Assembly (NCBI RefSeq): GCF_037975245.1
Contig: NC_092574.1
Coordinates: 9,769,713-9,833,712, forward strand
Source of the DNA: Apostichopus japonicus
Taxonomy: Eukaryota; Echinodermata; Holothuroidea; Aspidochirotida; Stichopodidae
Direction of reading: 5' to 3'
DNA: 64,000 bases
Made by a program: the position numbers and the translations under genes
Shown here: piece after piece, positions 14,992 to 57,548 of the stretch
How positions within the stretch are numbered: position 1 is the stretch's first letter
Layout: each line of letters begins with the position of its first letter
Notes under the pieces: model-generated
What the model was told of the DNA's origin: nothing
Database searches by the model: none
Seen by the model: only the letters and a program-made list of their open reading frames with translations

Positions 14992-15099
14992 AGCATATCC
15001 ATGGGCGTCAATCCAGGGGGGGACGGGGGGACACGTCCCCCCCACATTTCGATGGATGGGGGAAACAATATCAAATGTCCCCCCCACACATTTGGAAAA

Positions 15100-15500
15100 A
15101 GAGTAGTAGAGTGTCGTGGCTCTATTTGGTTACGGCTTACACATCTTAGGATTCATATCCTCGAATATCACTCAATGTTGCTGAATGGAGAATTCCACCC
15201 AGATCTCGTGAGTTGGTACCCTGAGCTCTCCAACAATCTTAAGCTTAGTCTGCCTTTATTTCGAGGCCAGTTCCATTCGTCGTCGGTTGAAGGGTATAGA
15301 CAAATATTCAAGTTGATGAATCCAGTGGTACGGGCTATGTTTGGTGAAGTCGAAGCTCTCTTGCGGTTGCTCCTCGCCTCCTCCGCCAGTTCGACGGAAG
15401 CCGAGAGATCTTTTAGTGCTTTGAGGCGTTTGAAGACAACGCTACGGAGCACCATGACTCAACAGAGGCTGAACCATGTGATCGTGTTCCATATTCACCG
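15100..15500 (+). pseudogene. hAT transposase C-terminal (dimerisation) fragment
   Basis: A plus-strand frame open from 15001 to 15555 encodes, from about 15150, a stretch typical of hAT transposases of the ZMYM1-like / DUF4371 type. It includes LPLFRGQF and then LLASSASSTEAERSFSALRR, which matches the hAT C-terminal dimerisation domain (Pfam Dimer_Tnp_hAT, 'SS..AER.FS.L..IKT.LRS.M...RL..L'). Only this last third of a transposase is present; the catalytic RNase H-like part is missing. The ATG at 15001 lies in the terminal repeat and is not a real start. The frame after 15503 runs into another inserted element, so the protein is truncated and inactive. Confidence 0.85.
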
Positions 15501-15502
15501 CG

Positions 15503-36416: not shown

Positions 36417-36655
36417 TATATTTACTTTGTTCCCCGCTTACCTGTCTCCCCACAACATTTTTCGAAAGATTTGAATCCACCAGAAAACGTATGAGTAAAC
36501 ACTTTGGATGGTAGAATGAGAAGGAAGGGCATTGACCGGATAGGACCTGTCACTGAGGGTGCACAGTATTAAAAGATTACCAGGGCATACTAGACACGGT
36601 AGAATGAGGTGCTTATGTTGTGGGGAGACAGGTAAGCGGGTCACTCGTAAATATA
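36417..36655. repeat. 239-bp inverted-repeat unit (24-bp near-perfect arms plus tips)
   Basis: Left arm 36417-36458 and right arm 36615-36655 are reverse complements over CCCGCTTACCTGTCTCCCCA and CAACAT (no mismatch) and again at the outer tips (TATATTTAC), separated by a short mismatched segment. The arms enclose about 156 bp of unrelated sequence. It could be a small unclassified MITE. The left arm follows a (GTAT)n stretch at about 36388-36416. The minus-strand frame across it is not a gene. Confidence 0.8.
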
Positions 36656-36699
36656 TAAACCAGTAAGTTTCATAATGATGGGTGTTTGTGAGTGAGTGA

Positions 36700-37290
36700 G
36701 CAAAATTAAGTATGTCGCAAACTCCTCCTAGACCCGAAGTCCTGTCAAGTTAAGCTTGGTGAGTGGGTGCCTGACCATGTTAACTCATGCCTGCTGGAAA
36801 GATGATGTCAAAGAGGTCAAAGGTCAAGAAATCTAAAAATTGGTTTTTAGCAATTATGCCAACTTGTTGGACAAAGGCATTAAACCTCATTATATGTAGA
36901 GAAAGAAGAGACAAAGTTTAAAATAATACAGATTTAGCTGTTAATGCTTGTAGTTAACGGGACCGTCAATTGAGTTAAAGTTAAAATTGGTCTAAATTGT
37001 GCAAAAGAGTGTGTCGTGAACTTCTCCTACACTGTAAGTCCGATCAGGTTCAAACTTTGTGTGTAGGTGCCTGACCATGTACTGTAAACTTGATCTTAGG
37101 TGATTGGTATAAATGTCATAGGTGAAAGGTCAAATACCGAGAAACTGTAGCCATTTTCTGCTTGTCAGTATGTTTGAAAAAGTCATTAAACCACAAAATA
37201 TGTAGACTATAATGGGATAAATTTTAAATTAGAACTTGCAGTTGTTAAGGGTCAAGGTCAAAGTCCATTGTAGATCCATTCCATCATAGA
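36700..37290. repeat. Two-unit dispersed repeat with DR1-like motif
   Basis: Two related units of about 300 bp: each has GTCG(C/T)(A/G)AACT(C/T)CTCCTA, a 'GAAGTCC..TCA.GTT' segment, then TGCCTGACCATGT, an AGGTCA-containing segment and a 'TTAAACC.CA..ATATGTAGA' segment. The first unit contains the perfect direct repeat AGGTCA-A-AGGTCA at 36814-36826. Confidence 0.7.
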
Positions 37291-38028
37291 AGAGATGAGA
37301 TGCCATGGATTGCCATCTTGTCTTATGTTTTAATCGTAATAGATGCTAAGATCCGATAACAAGGGAGCTTAATAGGCAAGTTTAATTCGTTTCTGTTTTT
37401 CTCGACAGGAAAGATACAATTGATAAAGATGGCTACCTTCAAGGTATGCAAGGAGTTAAGATGACTAATGAAGCAATCCACGACAGAATGAAGGTGAGAT
37501 GACAAAACTGTTAATTAATGGATCATTCAACTGTCAATTTGAGTATAGTTTCATTAGTTTAATGTAAGTTTAATTGCTTTGTTCAAGAGCTGTCCTAACA
37601 TTGTTGCTGTTCAATATCATTAGATGCAAGGTTACATTGCGACTAACATGCAACATCATGTAACATGTTGAAAATTTCAAGTTTCATTGCTTACACTACA
37701 TTTCGTGTTTAATAGAATGCTGAGTGAAACTACCCACTGCTGTTGGTGATGAAACATTTGGTGTTTAATCTGCAAGCTCCAGCTCATTCATTGGGGCTTA
37801 AATTTTAACTCCTACCCAGATCCCAACGAAGAGAGTAAGTGATGTCTGCTCCTGTAACGCGACAATAGCATAAGAGAGTAAGAGATGGTGGTAAGAACAG
37901 ACCTTATGGGGAAAAAGTTAACACATCATTTAATGAAGTGAAAATATTCCCCATCTTGGTGGGGTTGAATTCATTTCCCCTCTGGGTTGTATAACAAAAG
38001 AGAAATCTGTAAGCGATTGTTGTGAATG

Positions 38029-38109
38029 CATCTTTGTGTGATTGATAACTAATCCATCTTTGCGTGATTGATTATTAATCCATCTTTGCGTGATTGATTA
38101 TTAATCCAT
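38029..38109. repeat. Three-copy 26-27-bp tandem repeat
   Basis: CATCTTTGCGTGATTGATTA-type units at about 38029, 38057 and 38083, ending TTAATC. Confidence 0.88.
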
Positions 38110-40838
38110 TTCTGTGAAGAGACTGGTAGGAGGACTGTACAGAAGGTGGAAGAGCCAGGTACATTTTCAAGTTTCTTCCATTTGGGTTTGGTACGTTGAG
38201 AGTACAAGATGGATATGATGCTCGCATTGTATACAATTATTAATAGCAGTATGCTGGAGACAATGGGTTGTAGGACTATTGTTTGCGAGCGAGTCACAGA
38301 TATGGTCATGTGCGAAGAAAGTTGTAATGAATTTGAAAACTAACCAATGAGTCTGTCTTGCGTACAAAGATTTACTTCGCTGCTAAATAAACCCGAGCGC
38401 GTTTAGCAGGAGTGTCAAGCATAAATCAGGGACGTTTAAATTCGGTTAAAATGTTCTATTTATGGTAGTTTGCAAGCGAAGATCTATGTTACCTAACTTA
38501 AATGGAATTGATACCAAGTTTTTGTATTGAATGAGTGCAGTTGTTAAAGTTTTTGTCCCCACCAACCCCACCCAACCCCCGGAAAGAAGTATCCCTAACC
38601 ATGATGAAATATCACTTAGTAATATTCAGTCTTACCGAAGGCGATGGAGAACAACAGAGTTAAGGAGAGTGGAATTTTCGGAACGTTAAAGAATACATCA
38701 AGTTTATTTCCTTCATCCTCAGATTTAGTGTAAAGAACATTTGGTGAATATTTTAAGGATTACAAGCTCATTCCCTTTTTCCTAGAACTGAATAAGTGTT
38801 CACGCAAAGCAAATTGCTCTTTTTACCCATCACGAATGTAGCTGTGCAGTTACTAGTGTATTGGAAACAATATTATACCTGCCATTAGTTATACCACATG
38901 CAACTGTGTTTTATTTTTTTTTTTTTGGGGGGGGGGTTTCCCTTAAATTGTATGTGCATTGTGTCACTTTGTTTTGACAAATAAGGCTTTGTTCTGTGCA
39001 GTTATAATTTTTTCCTATAATCACAGAGATATAAATATAAAAATATTTAGAGGAAAATCTTGAAAAGGGTGTAACAATATTAACGTTGGGTCGGTTCAGA
39101 TCTTTCTGGAAACCCTACACGTAAAGAGACTAGGAGAGAATTGGTCGGGAGGATGGGGAAGGGAGGGAGGGGTCTTGGTGGAATATTTAGGGACATTGCA
39201 GTTATTGTGTGTTGTTCTCCATCTCCATTTAAGTCCTGTTATTTATTTGTAAATAAACACCCATCAGTTACTTAGTATTTTGCTGTTTTGGATGCACTGC
39301 CAGGGGTGGGACCTAGATTCCTCATCTCTTAGATTTTCTCTTAGATTTTGTCTGTAACTTCACCAAAACACATATCCAGTACCACTAAACCCACTCCAAA
39401 CTCTGTTGCTCCATTAACCTGAGCGAATCTTGCTATGAAATTGACTGACTTGCTACAAGTGTATATTGGGCATTTTTTGCCATTAATAGAAACTCTATTA
39501 TTATCATCAATTTAATAATAAACAAAAGGGAGAAACTTTCAGCACATGTATTCAAAATAGTAAACACTTACACTTATTGCCTCCACTTCACCCTCCACTT
39601 TAATATTCTGGCTTTGCTTTCTGATTATGGGCAGGTTTGAGATGTAGTACATTTCTCCATCCGTGTTATTGTCAGATAATGAAATGAGAATAAGAATTAA
39701 TAAAATTGTAAAAGAAATGTTTCCTTCCTCAACAGCATGACTTCATATCCGTCACTTCTTCAGTATCTACCTAAATGACAAATGTAGGCTGAATTTAGGC
39801 ACAATAATGTCGTAGACCACCAGAACAAGGTTAATTTGAGATTTTACACTCATACACTGCTGATCCAGTTTCAAGCTATTCACCAATAAAATATGCTAAA
39901 CCTCCGGTATGTTCCTTTAAAGGCTAACTTGATGTTATCAGCTCTTCTAGTACAGGCTTTAATGTTAATGGTAACCCATTGCTTTACATAAATTATCATA
40001 ACTCACTCAACCAAAGCATGTTCCTTTAACTTGATAATAAAACAACAACACCCTTGCACCCATTGAATGAAAATTGAGCACCATCTGTCCAAAAGTTGAC
40101 AAATTTGTACTACCACTGTAAACATGTCATTTGAGACAGGTAAAACTCACTTTGTGATTTTGTGTTGGATCTGAGGAACTGAGCTAAATGGTTAAAGTAT
40201 TAGACTAAATAGTCATGTCACTCTAAACCGATGAACCTGAGCAAATTAAAGGGTCGTTCCCTCAAAAATTAAAAGTGGCATAAAAAATCCAGCCTGGCCT
40301 GTTAGCCTTATCTTTCAACGGTTCACAACAAATTAACTGATGTTTGTTAAACTTTTTTTCTAAAGTCATCTGTTTTATGAATTTATCCTTCATGTCTTTC
40401 CTTTGTAATATAGCTTGTAAGATCTATTGCAACTCAAAAGCTTTTTATTTTACATTTTTTTTCACATTTTATAATAATAATATTCTGTAACTACTGTAGT
40501 TGATACAACAATACTTGACATTTTACTAGAAGATGGGTTATAAATGAAAACAAAAATTGACATTTCTGACATTACATTAGTTAGGGAAGTCATTAAATGT
40601 TCTTACATCTCTGTCTGTGGCTCTGACCCCCTCCCACCAAGAAAGTGTTACTCCCCCACCCCCTCCCATCACCCAAAGCAATCCGTGTTCACCCTTAAAA
40701 TTTTGGGCTATCGTTGACTCATTCCAGTCTTCAAATGTAACATGCATGATCTACACTTTATGCAGAGTACTTTTGTCTACATGGCTTGTTTATTCCTATC
40801 TAGTAATTTTCTTTCATACTCTTTTTTTTTGTGGACAG
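38110..40838. other. Probable intron sequence
   Basis: Lies between the candidate coding exons of the plus-strand gene. No supported exon. Contains a T-run then G-run at about 38912-38938. Confidence 0.4.
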
Positions 40839-41341
40839 AACCACCTATGGTGTCCACCACGGAACAGCTCCCCGAGAGACCTCCAGAAGACTTAAATTTG
40901 GAAGAGACTTGGGAAGATGACGAAACATCAGACAGAGACAATAAATTGGAATCCCAAGCCCCTGTAGCCGATAGTCTCATTATGGACATGAAAGCTTCCA
41001 TCTCATCTCTGAGTAAAGTACGGTCTAATTCGGACCGGATCAGGAAAGGCTTTAATACAAAAGACGATAACCTCCTGAAGGCAGAAGAAGACAGAAAAGT
41101 TTGTTTCAATTCTGGTAGCGACGTGCTGAACGCTTCATCAATCCAAAGAGACAAGCCGATAGAAGTTTCCTTCAGAGGGATTAGAAATAGGACTAAAGTT
41201 GAAGAAGAATTGGAAAGTGATATGATCCAGCTACCAGATAGTCCTGCCGGTCTCCAACTTTCAGGATCACAAACTTTTCAAGCCACCGATGCTGCAGCTT
41301 CTTTAAAGATATATATATATATATATGTATATTATATATAT
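40839..41341 (+). CDS. Long acidic/Ser-rich exon of an unidentified plus-strand gene
   Basis: A polypyrimidine tract and CAG (ending 40838) precede a frame of about 160 codons beginning EPPMVSTTEQLPERPPEDLN. It has an acidic patch (EETWEDDETSDRDN), a basic/Ser segment (SLSKVRSNSDRIRKGF) and an Asp/Glu-rich end. There is no globular motif, signal peptide or membrane segment, so it looks intrinsically disordered. It is phase 1 at its start, matching the exon at 32381-32429. The donor is uncertain: a (TA)n run starts at 41309 and possible donors are GTATAT at 41327 and GTAAGC at 41342 (chosen here, phase 0). Coding character is good because the codons avoid stops over 500 bp in an AT-rich region. 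The family is not recognised. Confidence 0.6.
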
Positions 41342-43254
41342 GTAAGCTTTTCTACTCTTTTTTATGTATGACCATGTGTGTAAATATTGAAGCACTAAGG
41401 ATATGCATTCGTTTACCCTTAAAATAGCAACAGATAAAGGAGAATACTGTTATGAAAGCTGTACTTAAAAAAACTTGAAATGTTGCTTTCCTAAATTTTA
41501 AGGAACATTTTGGCAGAAATTTTTTCTGCAGAAATCTATCTATATATCACGCATAGTCTTGAATACTTCTGCAATACCATTAGACCATCTCTGCCCTGCA
41601 CCTAAAAATACAGGTGGTTTTTCTCTCTTTTATGTCTTCAAAAGTGCTCTTCTCAAGGGTATCGTGTTGAAAATTTTCTCAGATTTACAGATGGAAATTA
41701 TGAAAGGTTTTTCGTTAAGGATGGTCATGTGATGATGCTAAAAAATAATCTAATGCATAAAGAGTCTGTAAATTCAGAAGAGAGGAATATATAAGTATCC
41801 TCTGCCGGGAATCTTGGATTGATTCCTAGCCAAAAGGCAAAAAGAAATCTAGGCGTGTATGTATGCAGGAAAACGTATGTGTATGTGATGTTCCAACTCG
41901 TAAACGGGGTGACTCACCAAGCATATCTTACATGAATTTCATGCAAATTAGGAAGTAACTTTACAGCACTGAATTCTTTGGCTGCTCCAGTTATTAAGCG
42001 GAGTGAAATGTCAACTGAGGTCATCAGCGGCCAAACTACAAAAAACTCATAGTCAAGTTTAGTGAACATCTGTAGCATCGGTAAAATGTCATAGTTAGGT
42101 GGTAGGTCCCCCTCACTGAGCATTACACTTTGAGCAGTTCTGTTAAGAGGTCAAATGTAAATTGGAGTCATCAGCTGCCAAAAGCCTAAAATTCTTGTCG
42201 ACATATTTAGCTTCAAACTCAAAGCTGCGATTATTCACATGCTCAGAAATTTACAAGAACTGAATGTTCTACGAAGAGGTCAAAGGTCACTTAGGGTCAA
42301 ATTCTGACCACCTTGATAACTCCAAAAGTTAAGGTCGGATGAATCGCACGCCTGGTATGATGGTGCCCCCACTGTGAGTTCTCCATTGCAAACATTTCCT
42401 TTTGGTGCACATAATTTGGTCAACTTCAGTTTTAGTTTGTGAAGTGGCTCAAATTACAGATAGGTCTGAAGTAACCTTGAACAATGCATAAACAGTCAAT
42501 CAGGTAAATGATATCTGCTTCAGAAGTGATAATCATATGTTGGATGATCTTAAAACACACCTCAAGTGATCCCTGGCAGTTACCACTAGTTGAGTCTCAA
42601 GGAGGTAAACAGGCTGTCTGAAAAGTTGCCTTCTTCTGTGTAGTATATATATATATACTGTATACTACATGGCTTTGGCTTTGAAAATATTTTAGTGTAT
42701 TGAAGGGGTAGGTTGCTGGCAGAGCTGATTTGCTAACAAACAAAAAAGATAAAAGGTAATGCCCATTTGCTCATACATATTTAACATATATATATTTCAC
42801 ATAAAAGGAAGACTGTTCTTACTGGATTTTAAATCATTTTTGGCCATAAAACTTATGTCCTGTAAAAACGTTATCAGTGACTGAATAGGTTGATGTCCAA
42901 AGAGTGAGTTAGTACATGTGTTGTGGTCTAGGGAGCTTGAATTGTCTGATCATTTCTGGTTCTCACTTAATTCTTGAACAAATGTTAACTCACTTGACTC
43001 TACATCAGTCAGATAGTCAAGTGGGATTTTGTGCAAATAATATGGCAAGAAAATCACAATTCTTTGCCCCCTGTTTAGAGGATGCTAAAACTCCTCTTCC
43101 TTTTGGGGGGTTTGATATAGATGCAATATTTTGTTAGCACTTAGTGGACATAGTTTATTTGCAAGTTTTGGTTATTTGTTTTTACTTGTAAGCTGCAAAA
43201 AAAAATTTGAAAAATCGGTGATGTGTTGTTTTTTTTACTTGTGCTTTCACTGGA
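41342..43254. other. Probable intron or 3' region
   Basis: No supported exon. A (TA)8 tract at about 42645-42660. The segment 41990-42330 contains degenerate repeats with AGGTCA motifs, including a perfect DR1 (AGGTCA-A-AGGTCA) at 42277-42289, related in style to the repeat at 36.7 kb. Confidence 0.5.
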
Positions 43255-43345
43255 AGAATAAAAAAGAATAGCATAAGTTGAAATTGAACCAGGTACCTTG
43301 TGATGCCTATTTTTTTTGTCTACCACTAAACCATTAGGTGAGATC
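43255..43345 (-). mobile_element. tRNA-like SINE head, degenerate
   Basis: On the minus strand CTCACCTAATGGTTTAGTGG (A-box-like) is followed, about 35 nt later, by CTGGTTCAATTTC (B-box-like). Arms do not pair well. Confidence 0.5.
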
Positions 43346-43419
43346 CTACTGTTGGATGCATTTCAAATATTTAAAGATCCTGTTGTTGGGACTAAGGTGT
43401 TTTAAAATATATTCCCCTC

Positions 43420-43600
43420 CACTGAACCTTGTCAGGAATAGAGGAGACCTCTCCGCTGAACCTTGTCAGGGAGAGGGGTAGTGGCCAACTCGGGTGCCGC
43501 TGGGGAATCTTGTCAGGGAGGGGGGCCGCGCAGCTCGCATGCGGCTTGGGTGCCTTGTCGGGGGGAGGGGTGCCGGCGAGCTCCTTTTACAGAATTCACT
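43420..43600. repeat. GC-rich imperfect repeat cluster
   Basis: Four copies of CTTGTCAGGGAGGGG-like sequence (about 43430, 43462, 43510 and 43554), the last two within longer units of about 43-48 bp that also share GGGTGCC and (G)CAGCTCGCATGC-like parts. It stands out from the AT-rich surroundings. Frames across it give an 86-codon ORF on the plus strand that I do not believe is a gene. Confidence 0.65.
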
Positions 43601-43603
43601 CAC

Positions 43604-43690
43604 TCACCCACCCGGGGCTTGAACCATGCTGCTCAGTATCATCGCAGACGGAACAACCCATTACACCATTTTGGTTCCCAATGAAATAAC
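43604..43690 (-). mobile_element. tRNA-like SINE head
   Basis: On the minus strand AAATGGTGTAATGGGTTGTT is followed by GGTTCAAGCCCCGGGTGGG (a good B box). It lies immediately before the tandem tRNA-like array. Confidence 0.5.
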
Positions 43691-43699
43691 ATTCGTTTC

Positions 43700-44640
43700 T
43701 TACCTTTATACTTCCACCTGCTCCAAAGAAGAGAAAAGTAAAAGGCTCTGGTTGGGTCTTGAACTCATGACAGTGTGTTTGTCTGTCTCTCAGTCCAGAG
43801 CCCTTACCACTCTGCCACAGCAACTATTGAGAAATAATGCTCGTTTTTAATATTTCAACTTCAGAATGGAAGGAGGAAATGGCAAAAGATCAAAATGCTG
43901 TCTGGGGATTGAACTCATGACAGTGTGTTTGTCTGTCTCTCAGTCCAGAGCCCTTACCACTCTGCCACAGCAACTGTTGAGAAATAATGCTCGTTTCTAA
44001 TATTTAAACTTCAGAATGGAAGGAGGAAATTGCAAAAGATCAAAATGCTGTCTCTGGGGTTTGAACTCATGACAGTGTGTCGTCTGTCTCTCTCAGTCCA
44101 GAGCACTAACCACTCTGCCACAGCAACTGTTGTAAAATAATGCTCGTTTCTAATATTTAGACTTCAGAATGGAAAAAGGAAATTGCAAAAGATCAAAATG
44201 CCATCTCTGAGGCTTGAACTCATGACTGTGTGTTGTCTGTCTCTCTCAGTCCAAAGCACTAACCACTCTGCCACAACAACTGTTGATATATAATGCTCGT
44301 TTTTAATATACAAACTTCAGAATGGAAAAAGGAAATGGCAAAAGATCAAAATGCTGTCACTGGGACTTGAACTCATGACATTGCGTCGTCTGTCTATCTC
44401 AGTCCAGAGCACTAACCACTCTGCCACATCAACTGTTGTAAAATAATGCTTGTTTCTAATATTTCAACTTCAGAATGGAAAAAGGAAATGGCAAAAGATC
44501 AAAATGCTGTCTCTGGGGCTTGAACTCATGACAGTGTGTTGTCTGTTTCTCTCAGCCCAGAGCACTAACCACTGCGCCACAGCAACTGTTGAGAAATAAT
44601 GCGCGTTTCTGAAATTGCAAAAGTAATCATTTCAGAACAA
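43700..44640 (-). repeat. Six-unit tandem array of a tRNA-like element, about 152-bp period
   Basis: The motif GAACTCATGA recurs at 43761, 43911, 44063, 44216, 44369 and 44522, i.e. spacings of 150, 152, 153, 153 and 153. On the minus strand each unit contains TTGCTGTGGCAGAGTGGTTA (A box), CTCTGGACTGAGAGAG and ATGAGTTCAAGCCCC (B box), ending in ACAGCA. The first TGCTGT and last ACAGCA pair as an acceptor-like stem. The long region between suggests a type II (Ser/Leu-like) origin. Between units lies a conserved linker with AATAATGCTCGTTTCTAATA. Units are a few percent diverged by eye. A tandem, not dispersed, arrangement of a pol III-type module is unusual. Confidence 0.85.
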
Positions 44641-44698
44641 TATAGCAAAGATAATTTACGATCGGTTTAGAGGTTGATGATGACACCCGTTTATATAT

Positions 44699-47600
44699 AA
44701 TATGGACATGGGAGTTGCAGATTTGGGCTCCTGAGCATCGATTACCCCCTGTTACGTCATTTGGGCGAAATCGAGTTTGGGTCAATTTTTGGCAAAAATT
44801 GCAAGTGGTAGGTACCCTTACGGGTTTTTTTTAAATCAGTTTTTTGCCCCCCACGCCCCCACACAACACCCAATTCGAAAATAAATTTCAGATTCGTAAT
44901 CAGCGTGTCGCAAACTACCAGAAAAGATACACATTTATCGCTTTTGCGACAAAAAGTTTTTTCCCCTCATAAACAAGGAAGAGCGAAAAACTTTTACGAC
45001 GAACAAAGGATTAAAATCTTTTGTTGTCCCTAAAAGTTTTTCGCTTTTCTTTTGTTCATCTGAAGTTGCAAACTGAGCGAAAAAAGTGCCATAAGAGGGC
45101 TCAAAGGCGATAAATGTGTATCTTTTCTGGTAGTTCGCGACACGCTGATTACGAATCTGAAGTTTATTTTCGAATTGGGTACCAAAATGAGGTACTTTTT
45201 TAACTTTGAAAGACAAAACACCTATTTTTGACGCAAATAGAAATAATATAGACAAAAAGCCTTTCCCGGTCAGATAATTACACGAAATTGGTGTATAACA
45301 AAGACAAGGGTGTCTTCTACTTCACGTCCTATTTAAATGTCGATGGGTGTTTCAGAGAGGACAAGCGAGGGGGCTGAAAAGAGGATGTTTTCCAAATTGT
45401 GCACAGTCTTATAAAGAACACGTATTTCTATCTTGTACTCTGGGACCACGTATCTCCCGAACGGAAGCAGAGATGGACCTGGGAGTTGCAGATTTGGGCT
45501 CCTGAGCATCGATTACCCCCTGTTACGTCATTTGGGCGAAATCGAGTTTGGGTCAATTTTTGGCAAAAATTGCAAGGGATACGGATTTTTTAAAATCAGG
45601 TTTTTTGCCTCCCACGCACTCAAAATACATCCAATTCGAAAATAAATTTCAGATTCGTAATCAGCGTGTCGCAAACTACCAGAAAAGATACACATTTATC
45701 GCTTTTGCGACATAAAGTTTTTTTCCCTCATAAACAAGGAAGAGCGAAAAACTTTTACGACGAACAAAGGATTAAAATCTTTTGTTGTCCCTAAAAGTTT
45801 TTCGCTTTTCTTTTGTTCATCTGAAGTTGCAAACTGAGCGAAAAAAGTGCCATAAGAGGGCTCAAAGGCGATAAATGTGTATCTTTTCTGGTAGTTCGCG
45901 ACACGCTGATTACGAATCTGAAGTTTATTTTCGAATTGGGTACCAAAATGAGGTACTTTTTTAACTTTGAAAGACAAAACACCTATTTTTGACGCAAATA
46001 GAAATAATATAGACAAAAAGCCTTTCCCGGTCAGATAATTACACGAAATTGGTGTATAACAAAGACAAGGGTGTCTTCTACTCCACGTCCTATTTAAATG
46101 TCGATGGGTGTTTCAGAGAGGACAAGCGAGGGGGCTGAAAAGAGGATGTTTTCCAAATTGTGCACAGTCTTATAAAGAACACGTATTTCTATCTTGTACT
46201 CTGGGACCACGTATCTCCCGAACGGAAGCAGATATGGACCTAGGAGTTGCAGATTTGGGCTCCTGAGCATCGATTACCCCCTGTTACGTCATTTGGGCGA
46301 AATCGAGTTTGGGTCAATTTTTGGCAAAAATTGCAAGGGATACGGATTTTTTAAAATCAGGTTTTTTGCCTCCCACGCACTCAAAATACATCCAATTCGA
46401 AAATAAATTTCAGATTCGTAATCAGCGTGTCGCAAACTACCAGAAAAGATACACATTTATCGCTTTTGCGACATAAAGTTTTTTTCCCTCATAAACAAGG
46501 AAGAGCGAAAAACTTTTACGACGAACAAAGGATTAAAATCTTTTGTTGTCCCTAAAAGTTTTTCGCTTTTCTTTTGTTCATCTGAAGTTGCAAACTGAGC
46601 GAAAAAAGTGCCATAAGAGGGCTCAAAGGCGATAAATGTGTATCTTTTCTGGTAGTTCGCGACAAGCTGATTACGAATCTGAAGTTTATTTTCGAATTGG
46701 GTACCAAAATGAGGTACTTTTTTAACTTTGAAAGACAAAACACCTATTTTTGACGCAAATAGAAATAATATAGACAAAAAGCCTTTCCCGGTCAGATAAT
46801 TACACGAAATTGGTGTATAACAAAGACAAGGGTGTCTTCTACTTCACGTCCTATTTAAATGTCGATGGGTGTTTCAGAGAGGACAAGCGAGGGGGCTGAA
46901 AAGAGGATGTTTTCCAAATTGTGCACAGTCTTATAAAGAACACGTATTTCTATCTTGTACTCTGGGACCACGTATCTCCCGAACGGAAGCAGATATGGAC
47001 CTGGGAGTTGCAGATTTGGGCTCCTGAGCATCGATTACCCCCTGTTACGTCATTTGGGCGAAATCGAGTTTGGGTCAATTTTTGGCAAAAATTGCAAGGG
47101 ATACGGATTTTTTAAAATCAGGTTTTTTGCCTCCCACGCACTCAAAATACATCCAATTCGAAAATAAATTTCAGATTCGTAATCAGCGTGTCGCAAACTA
47201 CCAGAAAAGATACACATTTATCGCTTTTGCGACATAAAGTTTTTTTCCCTCATAAACAAGGAAGAGCGAAAAACTTTTACGACGAACAAAGGATTAAAAT
47301 CTTTTGTTGTCCCTAAAAGTTTTTCGCTTTTCTTTTGTTCATCTGAAGTTGCAAACTGAGCGAAAAAAGTGCCATAAGAGGGCTCAAAGGCGATAAATGT
47401 GTATCTTTTCTGGTAGTTCGCGACAAGCTGATTACGAATCTGAAGTTTATTTTCGAATTGGGTACCAAAATGAGGTACTTTTTTAACTTTGAAAGACAAA
47501 ACACCTATTTTTGACGCAAATAGAAATAATATAGACAAAAAGCCTTTCCCGGTCAGATAATTACACGAAATTGGTGTATAACAAAGACAATGGTGTCTTC

Positions 47601-47941
47601 TACTCCACGTCCTATTTAAATGTCGATGGGTGTTTCAGAGAGGACAAGCGAGGGGGCTGAAAAGAGGATGTTTTCCAAATTGTGCACAGTCTTATAAAGA
47701 ACACGTATTTCTATCTTGTACTCTGGGACCACGTATCTCCCGAACGGAAGCAGATATGGACCTGGGAGTTGCAGATTTGGGCTCCTGAGCATCGATTACC
47801 CCCTGTTACGTCATTTGGGCGAAATCGAGTTTGGGTCAATTTTTGGCAAAAATTGCAAGTGGTAGGTACCCTTACGGGTTTTTTTAAAATCAGTTTTTTG
47901 CCCCCCACGCCCCCACACAACACCCAATTCGAAAACAAATT
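44699..47941. repeat. 761-bp-period satellite, four full units plus a partial
   Basis: The marker GGAC(C/A)(T)GGGAGTTGCAG occurs at about 44704, 45475, 46236, 46997 and 47758; the four copies of an internal 321-bp segment start exactly 761 bp apart (44935, 45696, 46457, 47218). Middle units are nearly identical. The first and last 'A' parts (44699-44881 and 47754-47941) share a GTGGTAGGTACCCTTACGGG variant that the three middle ones lack. Each full unit carries a 313-bp foldback. Conserved frames of 63-106 codons are by-products of the near-identity of units. Confidence 0.95.
44868..45180. repeat. Foldback inside satellite unit 1 (74-bp arms)
   Basis: The arms 44868-44941 and 45107-45180 are reverse complements at 72 of 74 positions. 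Between them sits an inner hairpin, AGCGAAAAACTTTTA at 44982-44996 against 45031-45045, 15 of 15. Equivalent foldbacks recur 761, 1522 and 2283 bp to the right, with one extra arm mismatch in units 3 and 4. Confidence 0.95.
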
Positions 47942-48616
47942 GCTGTGTTGTATTATGCTTTACAAAACACATTACAGAACGTTTCCATAGGCTTAAAAGG
48001 TGTAGTAGACCTATTGGTTTATTTACAAGGCCGTTCAAAGGGCAAAACGATTATTGAGTAATATCATCTAGCTTTCATATCGACTTCAATATCCTGTCTT
48101 ATCAAAACAATTGTTTTGGCAAACTAGTCTGTCAGATTATTCATAACATCCTGATATATATACGATATGTGGGGATGTTAAGCGAGGTCAACTTCCAGTT
48201 CCATTTGTAAGGACCAGACAAGTTCTCAAATTGCTCTGTTTTTTTCTTCTACACACTAGAAATAAAACAGAGACAGACAAGAAATAAAAACGGAAAGAAA
48301 AGAATTTCAGGACTGCCTGTTTATTTTTCCACTTCTTTTGGGACACGATATTGCAACATTTATTAAGCAAAAGTGCAAAGAACCACATGTGTGAATCGCA
48401 TACAAAAAAAAATGGCAGTTGCCATGGAGACAATGAGTACACAATAGAAACCAGTGGTTCCTGCAATTATTGAACGTGCATTGAAAATTGTACATAGCTT
48501 CGTGACCTGTGATAGAACCCTTCACCCATTCTGCAAAAAAAAAAAAACAAGTCACGAGACGTCGCGATGTCGCGGAGCGTCCCCTCCCATGTTGTACCTC
48601 GGTAGAGGTTACTTAC
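47942..48616. other. Non-genic DNA after the satellite
   Basis: No supported gene. Might contain distal 3' untranslated sequence of a minus-strand gene. Confidence 0.4.
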
Positions 48617-48678
48617 GACAATGATGACATGGGTGGGTGTTATCTGTGGTACAGGACTATGCGTATTAACTAAAGCAC
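48617..48678 (-). CDS. Weak candidate exon, unidentified
   Basis: A minus-strand acceptor TTCTTTAG is followed by 62 nt reading ALVNTHSPVPQITPTHVIIV in a frame that is open well beyond it, ending at a consensus donor GTC|GTAAGT. No family is recognised and no partner exon was found. It may be chance. Confidence 0.2.
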
Positions 48679-48869
48679 CTAAAGAAGCCATTCCAATCCC
48701 ACAAGCAATGATCAAGCCACATTATTTACAGTAAAGAAATGAAACATATGCAAATGACTAAAAGGAAAGAAGAAAATCAGTATATATATATATCATTATT
48801 CCCCCATGCATTATTTTATTAAGTTTGGTTTCTACTGGAATAAAATGTGTCAAAATTCTTTTACCTCCA

Positions 48870-48885
48870 CCCCCCCCCCCCCCCA
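48870..48885. repeat. PolyC tract
   Basis: C-homopolymer of more than ten bases in an otherwise pyrimidine-rich stretch. Confidence 0.9.
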
Positions 48886-48899
48886 CCGATTTTGATTGA

Positions 48900-51800
48900 T
48901 ATTAATTCCGAGTTGAGTTTAGAAAGGCTAGGGTAACAATACCTTTTGTCCAAAAACTATAAATATTGGAAAAGAGAAGACCCTGCCACTACCCTGCCTG
49001 GGATTAAGAGTCGATCCAAAGTCTACTCTTCCAACCAACCAACCAACCAACAGAACCTCTTTTCTGGAAAGGAAAAAAACCCCACTTCAGTTCAACCTGT
49101 GTGATCTTGCCGTACAATTACAACGTCACGATTAATACCATGGCAATTTCTTTACAGCGTTTCTGACCGTCATCATTCACTCTTCGATAACCATTTATAG
49201 GTTTTTTTATTATCCATATTCAAATTTGGTTACATAACACTAATTACCTACCATACAGGATATACATTCAACTTTTTATCTCAATTTAAACCTTTTTATG
49301 AACTTTGTATCATTTTACAGCCTTGCAGTTATACCTCGCCTCACCTTCCCAATTATATTTTTTTCCATTCTTTTTATATATTTCTGTGCAAAGAATCTAT
49401 TTTTCCAAAATTTTTAGTTAAGCAAACTACATGCATGAACTACATAATCTGTGGGGTATCGGTTCCCATGGTGACTGCAAAACCCTCCACTTAAACATGA
49501 ACGCTCACATGACGACATGGAAAATCAGGCATAGGAATCATGCTAATTTTGATATTTGACATGAATATTCATTGTGCTTGTAGTTTCAGTACATCTGTAA
49601 TGAACATCAGTTGATCCAAACTTGTCTATAAATACTGCCTCCTTCTATTTGTAATATTTCCCTTCAACCTCTGCTATCGTTACAAATCTCTTAATAAGGC
49701 ACCCCGACACACACACAATGGCTGCAGAATGAGTCATTGCAACCACATCACCTTGGTAACCTCACAAATAGGCAAAATACCAAGAAATTTGTTGAATGAA
49801 ATGGGATGCTTTCCAACTTGGCTGCTCTGCTCCTGTTGATCTGAATACAAATTCATGAATATTCATTAGCACTGCACTACACTAACATCAGCTAATAAAT
49901 ATATTTTCATAGCTTTAACACCAATATCCATATATCCCATGAGCACCTGTTCCTGGAGTGGCCTCTGCTCATTGTTAAGTTGTACATGTTTACCATGAGG
50001 ACACAATGCCAAGTTTTTTGGCCCTCGGTACGACTGTTCCATTTATCCACGGGACAATGGTACAGCCCAGTCACTGAACCCGTCCAGAGGTACACGGGAA
50101 AATACTTCCTCGTGGTCTGAAGATGGCTATTCCCTTATTATCAAATCACAGCATGCATAACTACAGGTTTGTTCACACCCCCATGCTGGCTTTTAAACTT
50201 GTGAAATGCATTTGAAGTTTACAGGCAAATATTTCTGCATAATCATCATAGCTACACCTTTCATAAATTAAGAGCAGGACTAGATACAAATAACGAGTCA
50301 ACAGCGGGCTAACAGACTTCATACTTTAACAACCGGTGCTTTTTCTGACTTTAAAAAAAAACAGAACACAGTTTAATATTTCTATATATATGACATTAGA
50401 TGAAACAACATTGAAGATCTATCTTAGTAATGTCAATAATTAAGAATACAAGTCGTAATGAAATACTTTAATCATGAATACATGCATCCAAGACGTAACC
50501 TTATAACACAAGGAATAAGGAATACATTCATACTTTTTATACGTCTAGCCCTTTAATTATAATGAATTAAGAAAAAAAAAACAGTAAAGATTTTTTAAGC
50601 TTGGCTTTGTTGTACAAATGAAGATTACATCTCATATCCAAAGGAAAATCATAAACATTTCAACATGCAGTCATATTTGAAAAACAAAATACCCTATGAA
50701 ATGTTTGTTTCCTTCTTTCTTTTATTACAAATTACCAGGTTTCACAAAGCCCATTCATTCTTCATCCATTCAACAAGGTTAATTGTTTTATTCATGCTAT
50801 GCTACACTACACTACATTACTAAACAAACCACATTCCATACAGATCAGCCTCTGTTGACCAGATGCTGTTACTAAAATATTCCCCATTTTCTTTCTTTTG
50901 TTAAACCTGCGAAAATCAAAAAAAGACCTATATGATAATTACATTATTTTTGTTTTGTTTTCGATACGATTAAAATTGCACTTACTAAGTACCTGTAATC
51001 CTATAACTAAGTTTTAAGTAGGTCTGAATCCAAATCCAATAGGAAAAAAAAAGGTAAAAAAAAGCTATTCTTCAAATACGGAAACAAAATGAAGCATGCC
51101 TATGAAGTGTACATAACACGATGTGTTTATATGAGAGCAAATGCACACCTTATAGGCAGTTTCAAAGTGTTTCTTATTGACATTAGAGAAAAGCAGTGTC
51201 TGCTTGTTTATTATGTTAACATCTTTGGCAAAACAAATTAAAGCAATCCAGATCATTTCCTATCTCCATGGATCGCACATGGCATACTAGCTATTGGATA
51301 AGACTCCTGGCAAGAAATGCTTGTGCAATTTTTTTTTAGTGATTTTTGAGAATAAGCACAAAAAAAAATTACAAAGGATAAATTAGCTAGGGGATTGTTT
51401 CTATTCTTATTTCCGTGTGATGCTCCTGATATCCGCACATAAACAGAGCCGTGCGAGTAAATATTAGCTTCATTGGTAACTGGAACTTTGTACTGCGGCA
51501 TGTCGAGAATTAATTCTAAACATGCCTCTCTCGTCCTGTGAAGAGAGTTTTGTTACAAATATAACGCTAGTCTGATAGTCCTTGATCCACGAGAATATTC
51601 AGAAATATTTCAGCAGAGTGATTTTCAATGTCTTCTTTCACGACAGCAGTTCTAATGTGGTTTAAATTCTTGGCTGGATATTTGAAGTTCAAGAACTAAA
51701 ATTAAGAAAAGTATGTATAAAAAGTGACGTTTGTGCTCCAATGTAATAAGATTACGAACGAGTGGCTTTCTCTCGATCGTGAAGGCAGTTTGTATATGTC

Positions 51801-52620
51801 AAAGAGCTGTAGTTATCAGGATTTCTATCACTGTGACATGGCCTCGAAACAGAAACAAAAGACAAACTGTCTCTACACAACATGCATGATATTAACAACA
51901 ATGCAAACATTCAGATAGGTTAAAAAATACAAATGAGAATAACATTTCAGGGAAATACACAAACCGAACCGACACGTGGTCCGGTTACGGAAACCCAGGC
52001 ATGCAAGAAGGAAGGAAGGAGCCTTTATGTGCAACATTCTCATACATATCTACACAAAATACTTACCGAGGAAAGTGATACGACTCAAATGCTTAAAATC
52101 TGTTCTGACAAATACATGGTATTAAGTACTATACATTATGCGACTGGAGTAAATAGACCCTGTACGCTCTGCGATCCTGTTAGCCTAAACTTTAAGAGAA
52201 AAGTAAGGGGGAAAAAAAATAAAGAGAGGAAGAAAACTATTGCCTGGAACATAATGCTGATCCGGTCTAGAGTTAATTCCACTATTTAACAACAACCCAA
52301 TAAACTTATATAATGGAAGCCAAAAAAAAAAAAAAATCCGGACAAAAAAATCTGGACATTTTCATACCGTTGACCTCTGCCCTGACTACTTCCCGTGGAC
52401 ACTCGAGAAAAGCTTCTCGCATCACGGAGTAGGCATATACTTGACTTCCATGTAGCTGTTATAATGCACCTACAAACATAGTACTTGCAAAGAGAGAAAA
52501 AATATATAAAAAAATTGTAATAACGAGAGGGGAGGGACAGTTGAACTCTAACAGTACTGCTTACTAACGTTTACAACCAACTTTCAACAGAAACAAACTT
52601 ATGAAAGGAAATTTGACTTG
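48900..52620 (-). other. Downstream of adducin: likely 3' UTR and intergenic DNA
   Basis: No supported exon in 3.7 kb immediately past the adducin stop codon. Several TTTATT/TTTATA motifs (AATAAA or variants on the minus strand) are present, but the cleavage site cannot be chosen from sequence alone. Short open frames here lack motifs. Confidence 0.4.
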
Positions 52621-53937
52621 TCATTTTAAAAGTAGCGATTCTTCCTCTAGCTCTCTGCCTTTTTGTCCTTCTTCTTCTTTGACAAGAATGATGGCGTTCG
52701 GAACTTCTTCTTCTTCTTGGTCGGCGAGAGGAACGAGTCCTTCGAGGGGGAACCTTCCACGCTCTGACTGCCCTCGGGGGTGGGGAGGGTGCCTGTCATC
52801 GTTGTCTTCCTTCTCGCCGTTCAAGATACTGACTGTGGTTGTTTCTACCGTCCCCAGTTGATCTGAAAGAGTTGTGAAGAGAGAGAGAGGATGGAAAACT
52901 GCGATCGTACAAGAGAGACATTGACGAGATCATAATTAAATTCTACCATGACTGTATCAAACCTAACAGAAATGCACCTATTTATGCATGTGATGTATTG
53001 AGTGGGCCATAGTATGGTCTCTCATGGCTTTAGGACTTACATACATACATACACACACATACATACTCTAGCCAACTTATTTTAAGTTTTAAGAGGGTTG
53101 TGCTGGGTTAAGAGAGAGGAAGCTGGAGAATACAGGACTAAAATGAATTGTAAGATCACAATCCACAGCTAGGTTATGTAGCCGCTTCTTGAACAGGAGG
53201 AATGACAATGACCTTCAGCTCTCTCTCTCTCTCTCTCCACCAGCGGTAAGTGGTAAACTCTGGCAGACTATTACCTCCGTGAATGGTCACAGTCTTGGTT
53301 GTAATTTTCGGGGGTTGGGATGATAGCGGAGTTTTACAGAATTGGAGTGGGAGGGTAGGAGCAGGATTTTAATGTGGTGGGATGGGGAGGGGCGTAGCAT
53401 GATTTAAGCTAGAAATGGAACTGCTGAGGAGAGATTCAAATCTGTGTTGCGGAGGAGGAAACGTATGGAGATGGGTTTTCTCACTCTCCTTAAAGAGTGA
53501 AACAGACAGACTTATACTGACAACATCTAAAGTAGGGTGTAAGTCTGTCTTTCATGGCAATTCCCTTTCCTTGGGAGGGGTAGGGGAAGGGAAGGGGGGA
53601 CAAGGGCTGAAAGGTCCCAAAACTGTGTCAGTGAGCCCTCATATCAGACCAATATGCCCTTCCCCTGGACCCCCCACGCCACCCACCCAAAAAAGAAACC
53701 GGTTAAAAATTAAAAAAGGCCGGTAAAAAAAAATATCTACAGGACTTGTTAAAATGAGATGAACAAACCTTGACCAGTTTTGTCTGCAATTTCTTCCTTG
53801 TAACCAAAGATTTCTCTCTTTGACATCGACGTGAATGGATTGGGAGCGTAGGCCGTGTACAGTACAGCCTCGTCTTGGTACTCCCTCTGGATAATTCCTT
53901 TAGACTTGGCGTAGACTTGATTGTACAGGTCGATTCG
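52621..53937 (-). CDS. Adducin, 3'-terminal part of the gene (two exons seen)
   Basis: Adducins cap fast-growing actin ends and recruit spectrin at the membrane skeleton; the C-terminal MARCKS-related domain is the basic segment bound by calmodulin and phosphorylated by PKC. Two minus-strand exons are identifiable: 53937-53769 encodes the C-terminal part of the tail/neck region and 52862-52647 the MARCKS-like tail. The 'head' (aldolase-like) domain exons are not recognised within the window and should lie at higher coordinates or beyond the right edge. The introns use GT-AG borders. Identification rests on two independent motif matches in the correct order and strand. Confidence 0.85.
52647..52862 (-). 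CDS. Adducin last coding exon (MARCKS-related tail)
   Basis: A strong acceptor (CTCTCTTCACAACTCTTTCAG) precedes 52862. One frame ends SPSKDSFLSPTKKKKKFRTP then SFLSKKKKDKKAES and stops at 52649-52647; this is the hallmark adducin C-terminus (KKKKKFRTPSFL). That frame is closed by TAG and TGA between the acceptor and about 52810. The frame that is open from the acceptor, and in phase with exon 53769-53937, begins DQLGTVETTTVSILNGEKED and leads instead to an acidic tail ending at 52621, because AAG repeats are read as GAA. Either a downstream acceptor at 52793 (GATGACAG|GC) or a one-base difference in the C-run at about 52776-52785 restores the lysine tail. Confidence 0.85.
52863..53768 (-). 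other. Adducin intron
   Basis: Lies between the two exons, with donor G|GTTTGT at 53768 and acceptor CAG before 52862. It contains an (ACAT)n tract at about 53037-53066, a (CT)n tract at about 53217-53236 and G-rich sequence at 53290-53620. Confidence 0.75.
53769..53937 (-). CDS. Adducin penultimate exon
   Basis: A 169-nt exon between TTTGCCCTCCTCAG and AAG|GTTTGT. It reads RIDLYNQVYAKSKGIIQREY, then QDEAVLYTAYAPNPFTSMSK, then REIFGYKEEIADKTGQ. It matches the vertebrate adducin pattern 'ASKAIIEKEY...GPNPFT.LTDREL.EYR.EVE', with the invariant PNPFT. It starts in phase 0 and ends in phase 1 (one G left over), which dictates the frame of the next exon. Confidence 0.9.
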
Positions 53938-56012
53938 CTGAGGAGGGCAAACTCAAGCTGTTAATTCATATTTATAAAACCTCTGTTGTGTTTCTCTCGT
54001 CCCTCTTTTGACCAAGACAAGAATCAGCAGAGGATGAAACCATTCTTCACATTTGTCAGTTTAATTTTCTCCATGTGTAATATAATATAATTCATACTTC
54101 TGTGTTATATGTGTTTAATAGAAAATTAACAAATACTTAATTCTTCCATTTGTAATATATATATATAATGGCGGCCATCATGGCATGAAAATATGACATA
54201 AAATATTGCAGAAAGACTGTCAAATATACATCCCTCTCTCAAGATGGAAAGCAGAAATGTGATAGTGTTATTTTTGATATAATGTACATGCAGAGGTTCG
54301 TCATAATAATAATTATATGGATAAATGCATAATAGGTTTAATAATTCCTATCAACTTTACACTTGCATATATATGTTCAAGCTTCACTGAGATGATAGCA
54401 AAAAGCAATAAAAAGTAAGACCCGTAACTCTTGACAGGAGGAACTCTAAACAGGTAAATTTTTCAACAACAGGTTGGAAAAATGACAGTAACCAGTGACA
54501 AAAGCTTGTAACGGTTCATCCAAACCCAGGAAGGAAGTGATCATTGACCGTCACAAACGCCCATTACGATAATTACAACCAAATTTAACTAAAGGCAACT
54601 GTACTGCTTTCTCTTTGTTTCATAGTCTCCTTTTAAATTTCTTGTTTCTTCATTCTTCTCTCAACAGTTCAAAGAAGCTTGTCACATTTAATAACAATGG
54701 CTTTTAAGAGTCCAAGGAAGTAGAGAAAAAGAATGCCACAAAATATGACAACTTAACATGGTCCTGGAGTGAATGCTGATTGGTCGAATCATCCAGACAA
54801 TGACAGCATTGTACATTAAGCACGACATGCAGAACAACACTGACCACAAATCTTGATATGGCGTGACATTTCCCTCATTTCAGCCCCCCTCTGACGGCTA
54901 AAGATCTCCCATCCTCCACCCCGTCCCAACCCAAGTGGAAACTTCAATGTGAAGGGGAATATTACCAGAATTTGGCCCAAGAAAATATTATTATTCAAAA
55001 ATTTTGAATTTTGGCATTCATATTATATAACATTATAACAAATATTTGGAATAATAAGTTTGAAAATATAATGTGAGTGCAAGCATGCAAAGAAAAAAAA
55101 AGGAATACATGAAAACTTGAAATGTGAGCAGGTACAGGCAAAGCAGTTAATGTGCAGATAAATAAAAGGAGGAAGAATACAGAACCAAAACCAAAAAGAA
55201 AGGAATACTTGGGGACCCTTTCTATTCATACATCTAATTTGGTGGAAGAGTAGGTATAAATACCATTGCGGGGATATTTGTCTGGTTTAGTGGTAAATAT
55301 AACACATTTTACCATGCCCCAAACTGACTTCAATTCTTTAAGGGCATTCAAACAATAAACATCCACTAACTTTGTGTCAAAATATGAGCTCTCTGTTACA
55401 TATGTGATGGTGTGTTAGCACATTGCATATAACTCCTGACTATTCTGTCATTTGTGAATAGGACTGCATAATGCAATTTTAGTCTAGTATGTTAATTATT
55501 TAATGATGTCAATTTTCCTCACGATGAGCTTCATTCTCAAAAGTTATACGGTCTATACTTACATTTTATGCCTTTGTTTGCTAGCTGGGTCATCTACTTG
55601 GTTATTTTTCAGTGGAACAGGTGTCACTTAACTGTTTCTTCTCCTCTTTACTGCTTGCATGTGTTCCTCTCATTCCCAAATTTGTCCATCAACTTCATGC
55701 TCCAGTACTCCTGTTTCAAAAGGAATATAAATAATATCAAAGGCTCTATGTTCACATACTGGGTAATCACTAATCACAATAAATCCCATTCCAACCCCAT
55801 AGCTTGACGCACACACACACATCTAATCAAATACAAACACATGCTGTTCAAAAGCTGTTATTTCCTATCCACAGTTGGTTTGGTCTACCAAACATAGTCT
55901 GAAACTCTCTACAAAGACAACGATGCACAAAGCTGACCTTGGCAACCTAGGATAAGGAATTATATTTTACCCAGCCCAGACACAATAACATGTGCATATC
56001 AACATTACTTAC
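53938..56012. other. Probable adducin intron, no exon seen
   Basis: Both strands were scanned; only short frames without splice or family support. A (TA)5-type tract lies at about 54156-54168. Confidence 0.45.
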
Positions 56013-56204
56013 TATAGGATGAGCTCCAGGTATGGCTGCCTTTCCCAGGAACAAGTACACCCCACTGCCTCTGAGTAGTGGGCTGATGAGGGACGTCCGT
56101 GTGGTGATCGATCAGTTCAAGTGCAGCTTGTAGATTGCTCAACAGCATGTCTCTTCCCAGTCCTGCTGTCAGTACACTACAAAAGTCAGCCAACCAGTTT
56201 GGAC
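56013..56204 (-). CDS. Candidate 192-nt symmetrical exon, unidentified
   Basis: A minus-strand acceptor (TTTCATTACATGTAG) and an excellent donor (TATA|GTAAGT) bound a fully open frame: PNWLADFCSVLTAGLGRDML, then LSNLQAALELIDHHTDVPHQ, then PTTQRQWGVLVPGKGSHTW. It is phase 1 at both ends and divisible by three, like a cassette exon. It has a helical Leu-rich centre and no recognised domain. It does not match the adducin regions I know, and its phase does not fit the phase 0 start of the adducin exon at 53937. It may belong to another gene or to an intermediate exon set I missed. Confidence 0.4.
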
Positions 56205-56226
56205 CTACATGTAATGAAAGAAATTA

Positions 56227-57548
56227 ATGAAAATGATATGGCACAAAAGAATGGGTCTAATAAAGAAGACACTGCAACTGGGTGGCCTCTCCAAGGACTC
56301 TCCAATTCATGCAGAATATGTTCATCAACATAACAACCCTCTGAGTAATGCAAGAAGTAAGACTCCATTTGCTCCTGCAAGCCAATGCAGAGATGTGACT
56401 GTTGAGAATGTCGCCATGGATAAATATTTATTAGTTACCATCACAGTATTAAACAAGTTGTCCTTAATGGGTGAAATGAAAAGAAGAAGGGATCACATGG
56501 TACAATGTCCAGACCATGAGAGCTGTTCAGCAAAGATGCCCTATTTCGGAGATGAACAAAATGGTGGAAAGATTTGCGAATCCAAATTACTTACAGGTAA
56601 GAATCCACTAATGGTCAAGTGTCTCACAACTGATGCTGATGGCAAGGCATGTCAAGGGTTCAGTAGTACAATGGCTGTAACTATTCATTCTGAAACAGAG
56701 AACCTGTTAGATCAAGTTCACCTACTCAAGTCACTCCGCAGAGCACTGACTAAAGCAGTATTCTTCTCTGATATGTTCCTGCAAAAACTGTGACTAAGAA
56801 GCGCTTGACACAAAAGCGCTTTGCAGAGGAGTTGACCTACCATGTACAGGCAGAGGTGACTGCTTGCAGGAGAGCACTCAAATATGACCACTGCAACGTT
56901 GTGAAAGCTTTATCAACTTGCTTAGACTGCCTTGCAAAATGCTACAGTGGAAATCATTCACATTGCCCAAAGAATTTATTTCTATGCAAGAGGGGCAGGA
57001 AGTACACATTTCCATGTATGCCAAATGCTGCAAAGGGTTCTCTGCTAATATCCCACACTAACAGCAGGAAGCTAAAAAAAATACTTGAGACACGCACCTG
57101 CAGCAAGCATTATGGTCCACTCGTTTTGAGACTTCCACTCAAAAAGCAAAGGCAGTCTTATAAGGCTTTCAAGGTGACCAACCCAACATAGTACCACATT
57201 TTCATGCAATATTCAGTACAGGGACCAGTGCCATACACATAACAAATAATGTGCCTGAAGAGTCCGTAGCCAGGAAGATGGAAGCTGCAATATTAAAGGT
57301 GAGCTCAAATAGTCCACGGTTTCCAGACTCTGAAATAGATGCAAAGAAAACAGCAATGTGATGAATTACGCAGAGCATACAGATGGAGGATAACATATCT
57401 CAGAGAGAGAACATACAAGCTACATGGTAGAACTAAAAACATAAACCTGCCCAGTATTTATAAAAGAGATCAACTGATTCATGACCGCAGTTACTCTAGG
57501 ATGAAAAACTACACTGATGATGATGAAGATGACAATATTTATCAGTGA
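56227..57548 (+). pseudogene. Transposase-like gene, broken by frameshifts
   Basis: Four plus-strand frames follow each other collinearly: 56227-56793, 56790-57191, about 57201-57361 and 57339-57548. Together they resemble a transposase-like family common in cnidarians, molluscs and echinoderms. Matching parts are MVKCLTTDADGKACQGF, a 'DQVHLLKSLRRALTKAVFFS' segment, FAEELTYHVQAEVTACRRAL, KCYSGNHSHCPKNLFLCKRG and FSTGTSAIHITNNVPEE. The first frame break is a one-base loss in TTC(C)CTGC near 56777 (F-P-A-K-T expected). Further breaks occur near 57190 and 57345. The last frame ends in an acidic DDDEDDNIYQ. The superfamily is uncertain: Mutator-like or Kolobok-like are options. Introns cannot be excluded as the cause of one frame change. 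Confidence 0.5.

Follow-up and report, generated by a model that had tools for sequence, protein, structure and literature searches.

Background

Long dyad symmetry within satellite monomers is known, and is called "not so common" in a source that describes TmSat2 of Tribolium madens (704 bp, with inverted segments of about 300 bp), a satellite of T. brevicornis (1061 bp, about 470 bp inverted) and one of Trichogramma brassicae (385 bp, with 80-bp inverted repeats) (PMC13081366). In Drosophila virilis, the foldback transposon Tetris is reported to have given rise to satellite arrays, TIR-220 (PMC4079207). Template switching between the arms of an inverted repeat has been described as leading both to homogenisation of the arms and to inversion of the spacer (PMC8604942).

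The origin of satellites is an open question, and the genome of the sea cucumber Apostichopus japonicus bears on it: related sequences occur there as solo hairpins, as copies of a single unit, as short arrays and as an inverted array, some of these forms sharing one site in duplicated segments. Here we analysed 64,000 nucleotides of this genome (GCF_037975245.1, contig NC_092574.1, positions 9,769,713 to 9,833,712), hereafter the window, and searched the 671.6-Mb assembly of 35 contigs. An earlier note on the window, made from its letters alone, had pointed to a satellite of foldback units and called such a satellite uncommon; this is correct, though Tetris and the satellites of Tribolium and Trichogramma are precedents.

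Results

Structure of the array

Direct and inverted repeats were computed over 44.4-48.4 kb, which gave four units spaced 761 apart, with arms 77-79 nt long that match at 95-96%. The tandem array occupies positions 44702-47941 and has 4.24 units as assembled: one of 771 bp, three of 761 bp and a remainder of 186 bp. The array and its 761-bp period were thus as claimed in the earlier note, with units starting at 44702, 45473, 46234 and 46995. Its description as a tandem satellite of foldback units also holds, since every full unit contains a 313-bp foldback. No match to the array sequence was found elsewhere in the 64-kb window. The features are the following.

44702..47941, plus strand: foldback satellite array of 4.24 units, from repeat comparison
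44702..45472, plus strand: unit 1, 771 bp, A-type patch
45473..46233, plus strand: unit 2, 761 bp, B-type patch
46234..46994, plus strand: unit 3, 761 bp, B-type patch
46995..47755, plus strand: unit 4, 761 bp, B-type patch
47756..47941, plus strand: partial unit, 186 bp, A-type patch, stopping about 20 bp inside the left arm; 3 differences from 44702-44887
44868..45180, unstranded: foldback of unit 1, arms 44868-44946 and 45102-45180, 76/79
45629..45941, unstranded: foldback of unit 2, 75/79
46390..46702, unstranded: foldback of unit 3, 74/79
47151..47463, unstranded: foldback of unit 4, 74/79
44975..45052, unstranded: inner hairpin of unit 1, 38-nt arms and 2-nt loop, recurring every 761 bp

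The modules of the unit were named by us H, patch A or B, left arm (LA), LOOP (which includes the inner hairpin), right arm (RA), T1 and T2. The arms of the foldback are 79 bp long and complementary at 74-76 of 79 positions; the 74-bp arms proposed earlier, with 72 of 74 positions complementary, are exact and can be extended to 79 bp (76, 75, 74 and 74 matches in units 1-4). A nested inner hairpin is present as well, but the 15 bp attributed to it fall short, because its arms measure 38 nt, are 82% complementary and enclose a 2-nt loop. One arm pair is broken by a change shared by units 3 and 4.

RNA folding, which the earlier note had proposed as a check, places the foldback far below shuffled sequences: the 341 nt spanning the first one reach -180.6 kcal/mol versus -68.7 (sd 5.1) in 100 shuffles (z -22.1), and folding as DNA gives z -19.7. 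The 448 nt between two successive foldbacks fold ordinarily (z -0.61, 28 of 100 shuffles being equally good). The other long inverted pairs of the window, with partners at most 800 bases apart, are AT repeats, in its second half as judged among the 25 longest of 78. Long inverted segments within the monomer recur from array to array: 44 distinct foldbacks were collected from 10 arrays (88 rows, each foldback being found on both strands), 43 of them with 1-8 mismatches in 79 and one with an indel (52/78 ungapped).

A minus-strand open frame of 128-138 codons lies over each foldback (44935-47634) and is uninterrupted in units 1-4; a scan of one copy (45696-46112) gave no Pfam match. Two identities were rejected. 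An LTR-like element, with 44702-44887 and 47756-47941 as its terminal repeats of 186 bp, would have a target-site duplication of at most 4 bp, and the other arrays neither start nor end at the corresponding points. A retrozyme, or another catalogued RNA, was discarded with no hammerhead among 22 Rfam matches (E up to 5) in 43600-48700. A search of plasmids and IMG/VR with two exact patterns gave no match.

Mosaic patches and probable exchange between arrays

Units 2-4 differ pairwise by 2, 3 and 3 substitutions per 761 bp (more than 99.5% alike), whereas 21 substitutions and a 10-bp indel separate unit 1 from unit 2. Sixteen of these substitutions and the indel fall in a single 64-column patch just outside the left arm, which exists in two versions. 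The outermost copies, first and last, are of version A and have 3 differences over their 186 bp; the three inner ones are of version B.

44804..44867, plus strand: A-type patch outside the left arm
45575..45628, plus strand: B-type patch, 49 of its 54 bases aligning at 100% to the array at 6.98 Mb of contig C14 (C14a)

The array C14a also retains the 10 bases that are missing from the B patch of the window. The remaining modules of the window's unit are closest to another array of the same contig, at 9.46 Mb (C14b): where fully matched, they are 96-100% identical to it and 89-98% identical to C14a. Because the B patch resembles one array and the rest of the unit another, exchange between arrays would be the best account of this mosaic. 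When the units are aligned, all four combinations of states at sites 432 and 611 are present across the four units, which points to exchange or to recurrent mutation.

The family in the genome and its variants

A 34-base marker of the unit has 782 copies in the assembly (385 + 397, at most 3 mismatches) and its control has 0 (0 + 0). A search with the unit, also proposed in the earlier note, gave 107 matches, in arrays on C14 (six), C5 and C9, eight of 534 first-look candidates having been scored; these eight arrays were compared module by module. The units lie head to tail and form many arrays in the genome, as in a dispersed satellite. Among 100 exact marker copies listed there are 30 runs on seven contigs, the longest of 25 units, and 70 neighbour spacings, of which 50 are about 913-930, 14 about 761, 3 about 741, 2 about 588 and 1 is 1177. 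Unit length looks partly contig-specific among the places listed, with mostly about 913-930 bp on C5 (some 760 and 588) and about 761 bp on C9 and C14.

The 913-bp unit, represented by locus L052 (C5, 9.1 Mb), has the module order H - inverted T1 - LA - LOOP - R - RA - inverted A-like piece - T1 - T2, and its foldback of about 475 bp includes module R. The unit of the window has neither R nor the inverted A-like piece, and looks like a shortened 913-bp unit. An extended-arm form was also found, in which an inverted copy of T1 (1-64) flanks the left arm and the arms reach about 143 bp; the extra pairing, ungapped, is 59/64 in C14c (11.60 Mb), 44/64 in the array on C9 and 43/64 in C14a. Its junction has 322 copies (control 0), about 40% of the marker count, the two patterns allowing different mismatches. 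Array C14b is palindromic: its units run minus and then plus, turning at a foldback, and outward from the turning point 686 of 690 positions are complementary.

The edges of the arrays were compared. C14a and C14c share their left edge, at T1 position 54; the C5 and C9 edges coincide at T2 1-2, within duplicated flanks; the window's array begins at H, and C14e (14.69 Mb), preceded by a piece of inverted arm, at T1 44. Three arrays (C5, C14b and C14c) have module R at their right end. Some edges thus recur, as expected of a mobile element, and others do not. In C14c the outer units are of A type and the inner ones of the extended-arm form. The flanks of the five other C14 arrays have little in common except 153-bp arrays in two of them.

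A duplicated segment and its other copies

The array of the window lies inside a longer repeated segment.

36692..55201, unstranded: dispersed duplicated segment holding the array, collinear with one C9 locus, the aligned blocks at 82-89%
43753..44610, plus strand: 153-bp tandem array, 5.6 copies, adjoining the foldback array

Positions 38521-50941 are also collinear with C5. For the right flank, all of the 36 candidate places were scored and gave 55 matches, and 53313-55201 has 32 candidate places with 39 matches; many candidate places of the segment are on contig C20. On C9 and C19 matching sequence reappears after about 14 kb, so that the segment may exceed its approximately 18.5 kb. At 55200 the homology of four other places starts, and 33 of 40 scored rows cover only about 55450-56300 (87-89%), which indicates another repeat there. 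The segment as a single transposon was considered and left unclassified, no Pfam domain (E up to 0.01) being found in six frames of about 36600-55700. Its open frames have pN/pS values scattered around 1, and a few are low in both comparisons (e.g. 39542-39742, minus strand, 0.25 and 0.25). The open frame at 40718-41277 shows several indels versus C9 and C5 in multiples of three, and others that are not.

Arrays like the 153-bp one adjoin solo hairpins or foldback arrays in many of the paralogous segments examined. By eye the 153-bp array resembles a reversed tRNA-derived repeat; neither Rfam nor ARAGORN called a tRNA in 43753-44610. The 90 bases at 44611-44701 have no match in the regions of the seven other arrays. 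Elsewhere in the window are transposase fragments of the hAT (PF05699) and Mutator-like (PF20700) kinds, at 14971-15555 and 56218-56793.

The site of the array was inspected in 19 other copies of the segment (20 loci cut out, minus the window and two duplicate places, plus two more). Ten of them (L032-L036, L040, L041, L044, L046 and L047) carry a long hairpin of R', LOOP and R that is related to the foldback core and to the inner hairpin of the window's units, and is free of arms and array units; L034 also has a T2 fragment, and L032 and L044 have more than one hairpin piece. Six copies have unit modules (L037, L038, L042/L043, L049, L050 and L051), and three have neither (L039, L045 and L031, the last with a 27-base R match only). 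The right edge of the window's array corresponds to a loss that starts near position 20 in the left arm and runs up to 47942, and the sequence at 47942 is conserved in 15 of 16 aligned loci, two of these being one place. From this we infer that the window's array was inherited within the duplicated segment, as a family member trimmed at its edge, and is not a fresh insertion.

Concerted change in the arms of solo hairpins

The pairing of arms was analysed in solo hairpins and in array foldbacks. Twelve of 13 candidate solo hairpins were aligned; the other, L044b, has no intact hairpin and was left out. Both sides had changed in 14 of 88 pairs, versus 5.2 (sd 1.2) in shuffles, none of 500 being as high, and pairing stood at 96.1% versus 93.4%; seven of the 14 two-sided changes depend on L034 alone, or on L044a alone or nearly so. 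Between the two arms of one hairpin there are on average 4.67 differences over 88 positions, and between arms of different copies 7.95; none of 20000 permutations gave so low a value. This excess of own-arm similarity gave 28 and 31 of 40320 permutations when five close copies were collapsed to one and 5 of 5040 when L032b was also removed. Omission of L034, the most divergent copy, left 0 of 20000 in the full set, and 28 of 5040 and 4 of 720 in the collapsed ones. The loop is reversed in three of the 12 hairpins (L044a, L032a and L049, the last two being close relatives). The arms of solo hairpins thus evolve in concert. This and the reversed loops are what template switching would produce, a reading based on 12 hairpins of which several are related. 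Selection for pairing could be an alternative cause.

For the array arms, 12 of the 44 foldbacks were chosen by us from 8 arrays. None of 79 outer-arm pairs had changed on both sides (0.3 in shuffles; pairing 97.5% in both), although divergence is lower among these arms than among the solo hairpins, which gives the compensation test less power. Own arms were no closer than those of other units (4.33 versus 4.29 differences), no permutation total lying above that of the own pairing, and the inner hairpin of array units showed no own-partner excess (8.58 versus 8.57). Compensatory pairing, which we had taken as our own mark of a hairpin RNA (hpRNA), was therefore seen only in solo hairpins and not in array arms, at their low divergence; the sequence of the array speaks weakly against a maintained pairing. 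It lends no support to the cruciforms, or to the double-stranded RNA processed into small RNAs, that the earlier note predicted. A short loop should favour template switching and a spacer of 155 bases should favour it less, whereas selection for double-stranded RNA should act on both. Arms that are concerted in short-loop hairpins and not in wide-spaced foldbacks hence fit template switching better than such selection.

Discussion

Origin of the array

We consider it probable that the array belongs to a dispersed satellite that arose from nested foldback elements and was amplified by unequal and ectopic exchange, and that it is not a maintained source of double-stranded RNA. The unit would be made of a nested foldback element (a hairpin core and long outer inverted arms) and some 340 bp of unremarkable sequence. 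Core and arms probably derive from one or two non-autonomous elements of the foldback (MITE-like) type, of which they are remnants; the array arms look like remains of the inverted repeats of such an element, and some units have nested inverted arms flanked on either side by outer A-like segments. Ordinary unequal exchange would have multiplied the units into short arrays, which would then be patched through exchange with other arrays. Template switching at inverted repeats would keep the solo hairpins nearly perfect and reverse their loops; it may also have copied the right-hand flank to the left arm in one subfamily and made one array a large palindrome. The transposon origin, the mechanisms and the order from hairpin to array are all what we infer from DNA sequence; the direction may indeed be from hairpin to array or, through loss, from array to hairpin. 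Any function of the window's array is putative at most. Neither a transposase nor a clean empty site was found in this analysis, and the best exact flanking match at the window's array, looked for as a target-site duplication, is 4 bp.

A bolder version, which we hold as a tentative possibility, makes the hairpin itself the motor: a single element, maintained almost perfect and lengthened by template switching, would repeatedly seed tandem and inverted arrays at its own site, and the genome would then hold the whole series, with the solo hairpin at one end, the foldback satellite in between and the array-scale palindrome at the other. It is rather unlikely, in our judgement, that a mobile element instead has the array as its tandem core and moves whole, as do the satellite-like cores of non-autonomous Helentrons in oyster. 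In favour of such an element, short arrays are dispersed over many contigs; the outermost patch copies of the window are alike and the inner ones different, a layout with a counterpart in the A-type outer and extended-arm inner units of C14c, and module R ends three arrays on the right. The left edges of C14a and C14c, coinciding at T1 position 54, suit a mobile element equally well. Against a core moving whole, the other edges differ (H in the window, T1 44 in C14e, T2 1-2 in the duplicated flanks of C5 and C9), the flanks of the five other C14 arrays are mostly unshared, apart from the 153-bp arrays in two, and no target-site duplication was found at the window's array.

We regard as improbable that the locus works as an hpRNA gene, whose array transcripts would fold into long double-stranded RNA and be diced to siRNAs as for the tandem hp-CG4068 of Drosophila. 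The predicted fold is strong (z -22.1), tandem hpRNA loci with 9-20 copies and a copy number in flux are described (PMC10317233), and the solo hairpins retain pairing through two-sided changes. Two-sided change is however absent from the 79 outer-arm pairs, own-partner excess is absent from the inner hairpin, and one pair is broken by a change common to units 3 and 4; moreover the array has no match elsewhere in the window, and its Rfam microRNA matches stay far under the gathering score, the best being found on both strands. A false tandem duplication in the assembly, which the earlier note had named as a danger to its reading, is very unlikely indeed given 782 marker copies on many contigs, in similarly spaced arrays, and the distinct substitutions carried by the units; what could be misassembled is the exact copy number, units 2-4 being more than 99.5% alike.

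Comparison with known systems

The array is instructive and of a known kind, not a new system, and is likely the product of ordinary satellite amplification of an old foldback element. As described for Tetris/TIR-220, a foldback element appears linked to satellite-like arrays of variable copy number and to modular, rearranged forms; in Tetris the tandem repeats lie within the TIRs, whereas here a whole foldback lies within every satellite unit, and target-site duplications of 8-10 bp are reported for Tetris but none was found at the window's array (PMC4079207). Cg_HINE Helentrons of Crassostrea gigas also have short dispersed satellite-like arrays inside larger repeats and, in exceptional cases, two different tandem repeats side by side as here (PMC7492417); several array edges in the sea cucumber vary between loci. 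Tandem hairpin repeats with a fluctuating copy number are shared with hp-CG4068 of Drosophila, for which small RNAs and targets were shown, the present array being known from its DNA (PMC10317233).

A further parallel concerns the monomer: as in the satellites of Tribolium and Trichogramma, each tandem monomer holds a long inverted repeat, and arrays that turn in orientation are described in T. madens too (PMC13081366). The satellites of T. madens fill multi-megabase putative (peri)centromeric regions (PMC13081366), whereas the arrays of the sea cucumber are short (longest run 25 among the 100 exact copies listed), dispersed and accompanied by a solo hairpin relative.
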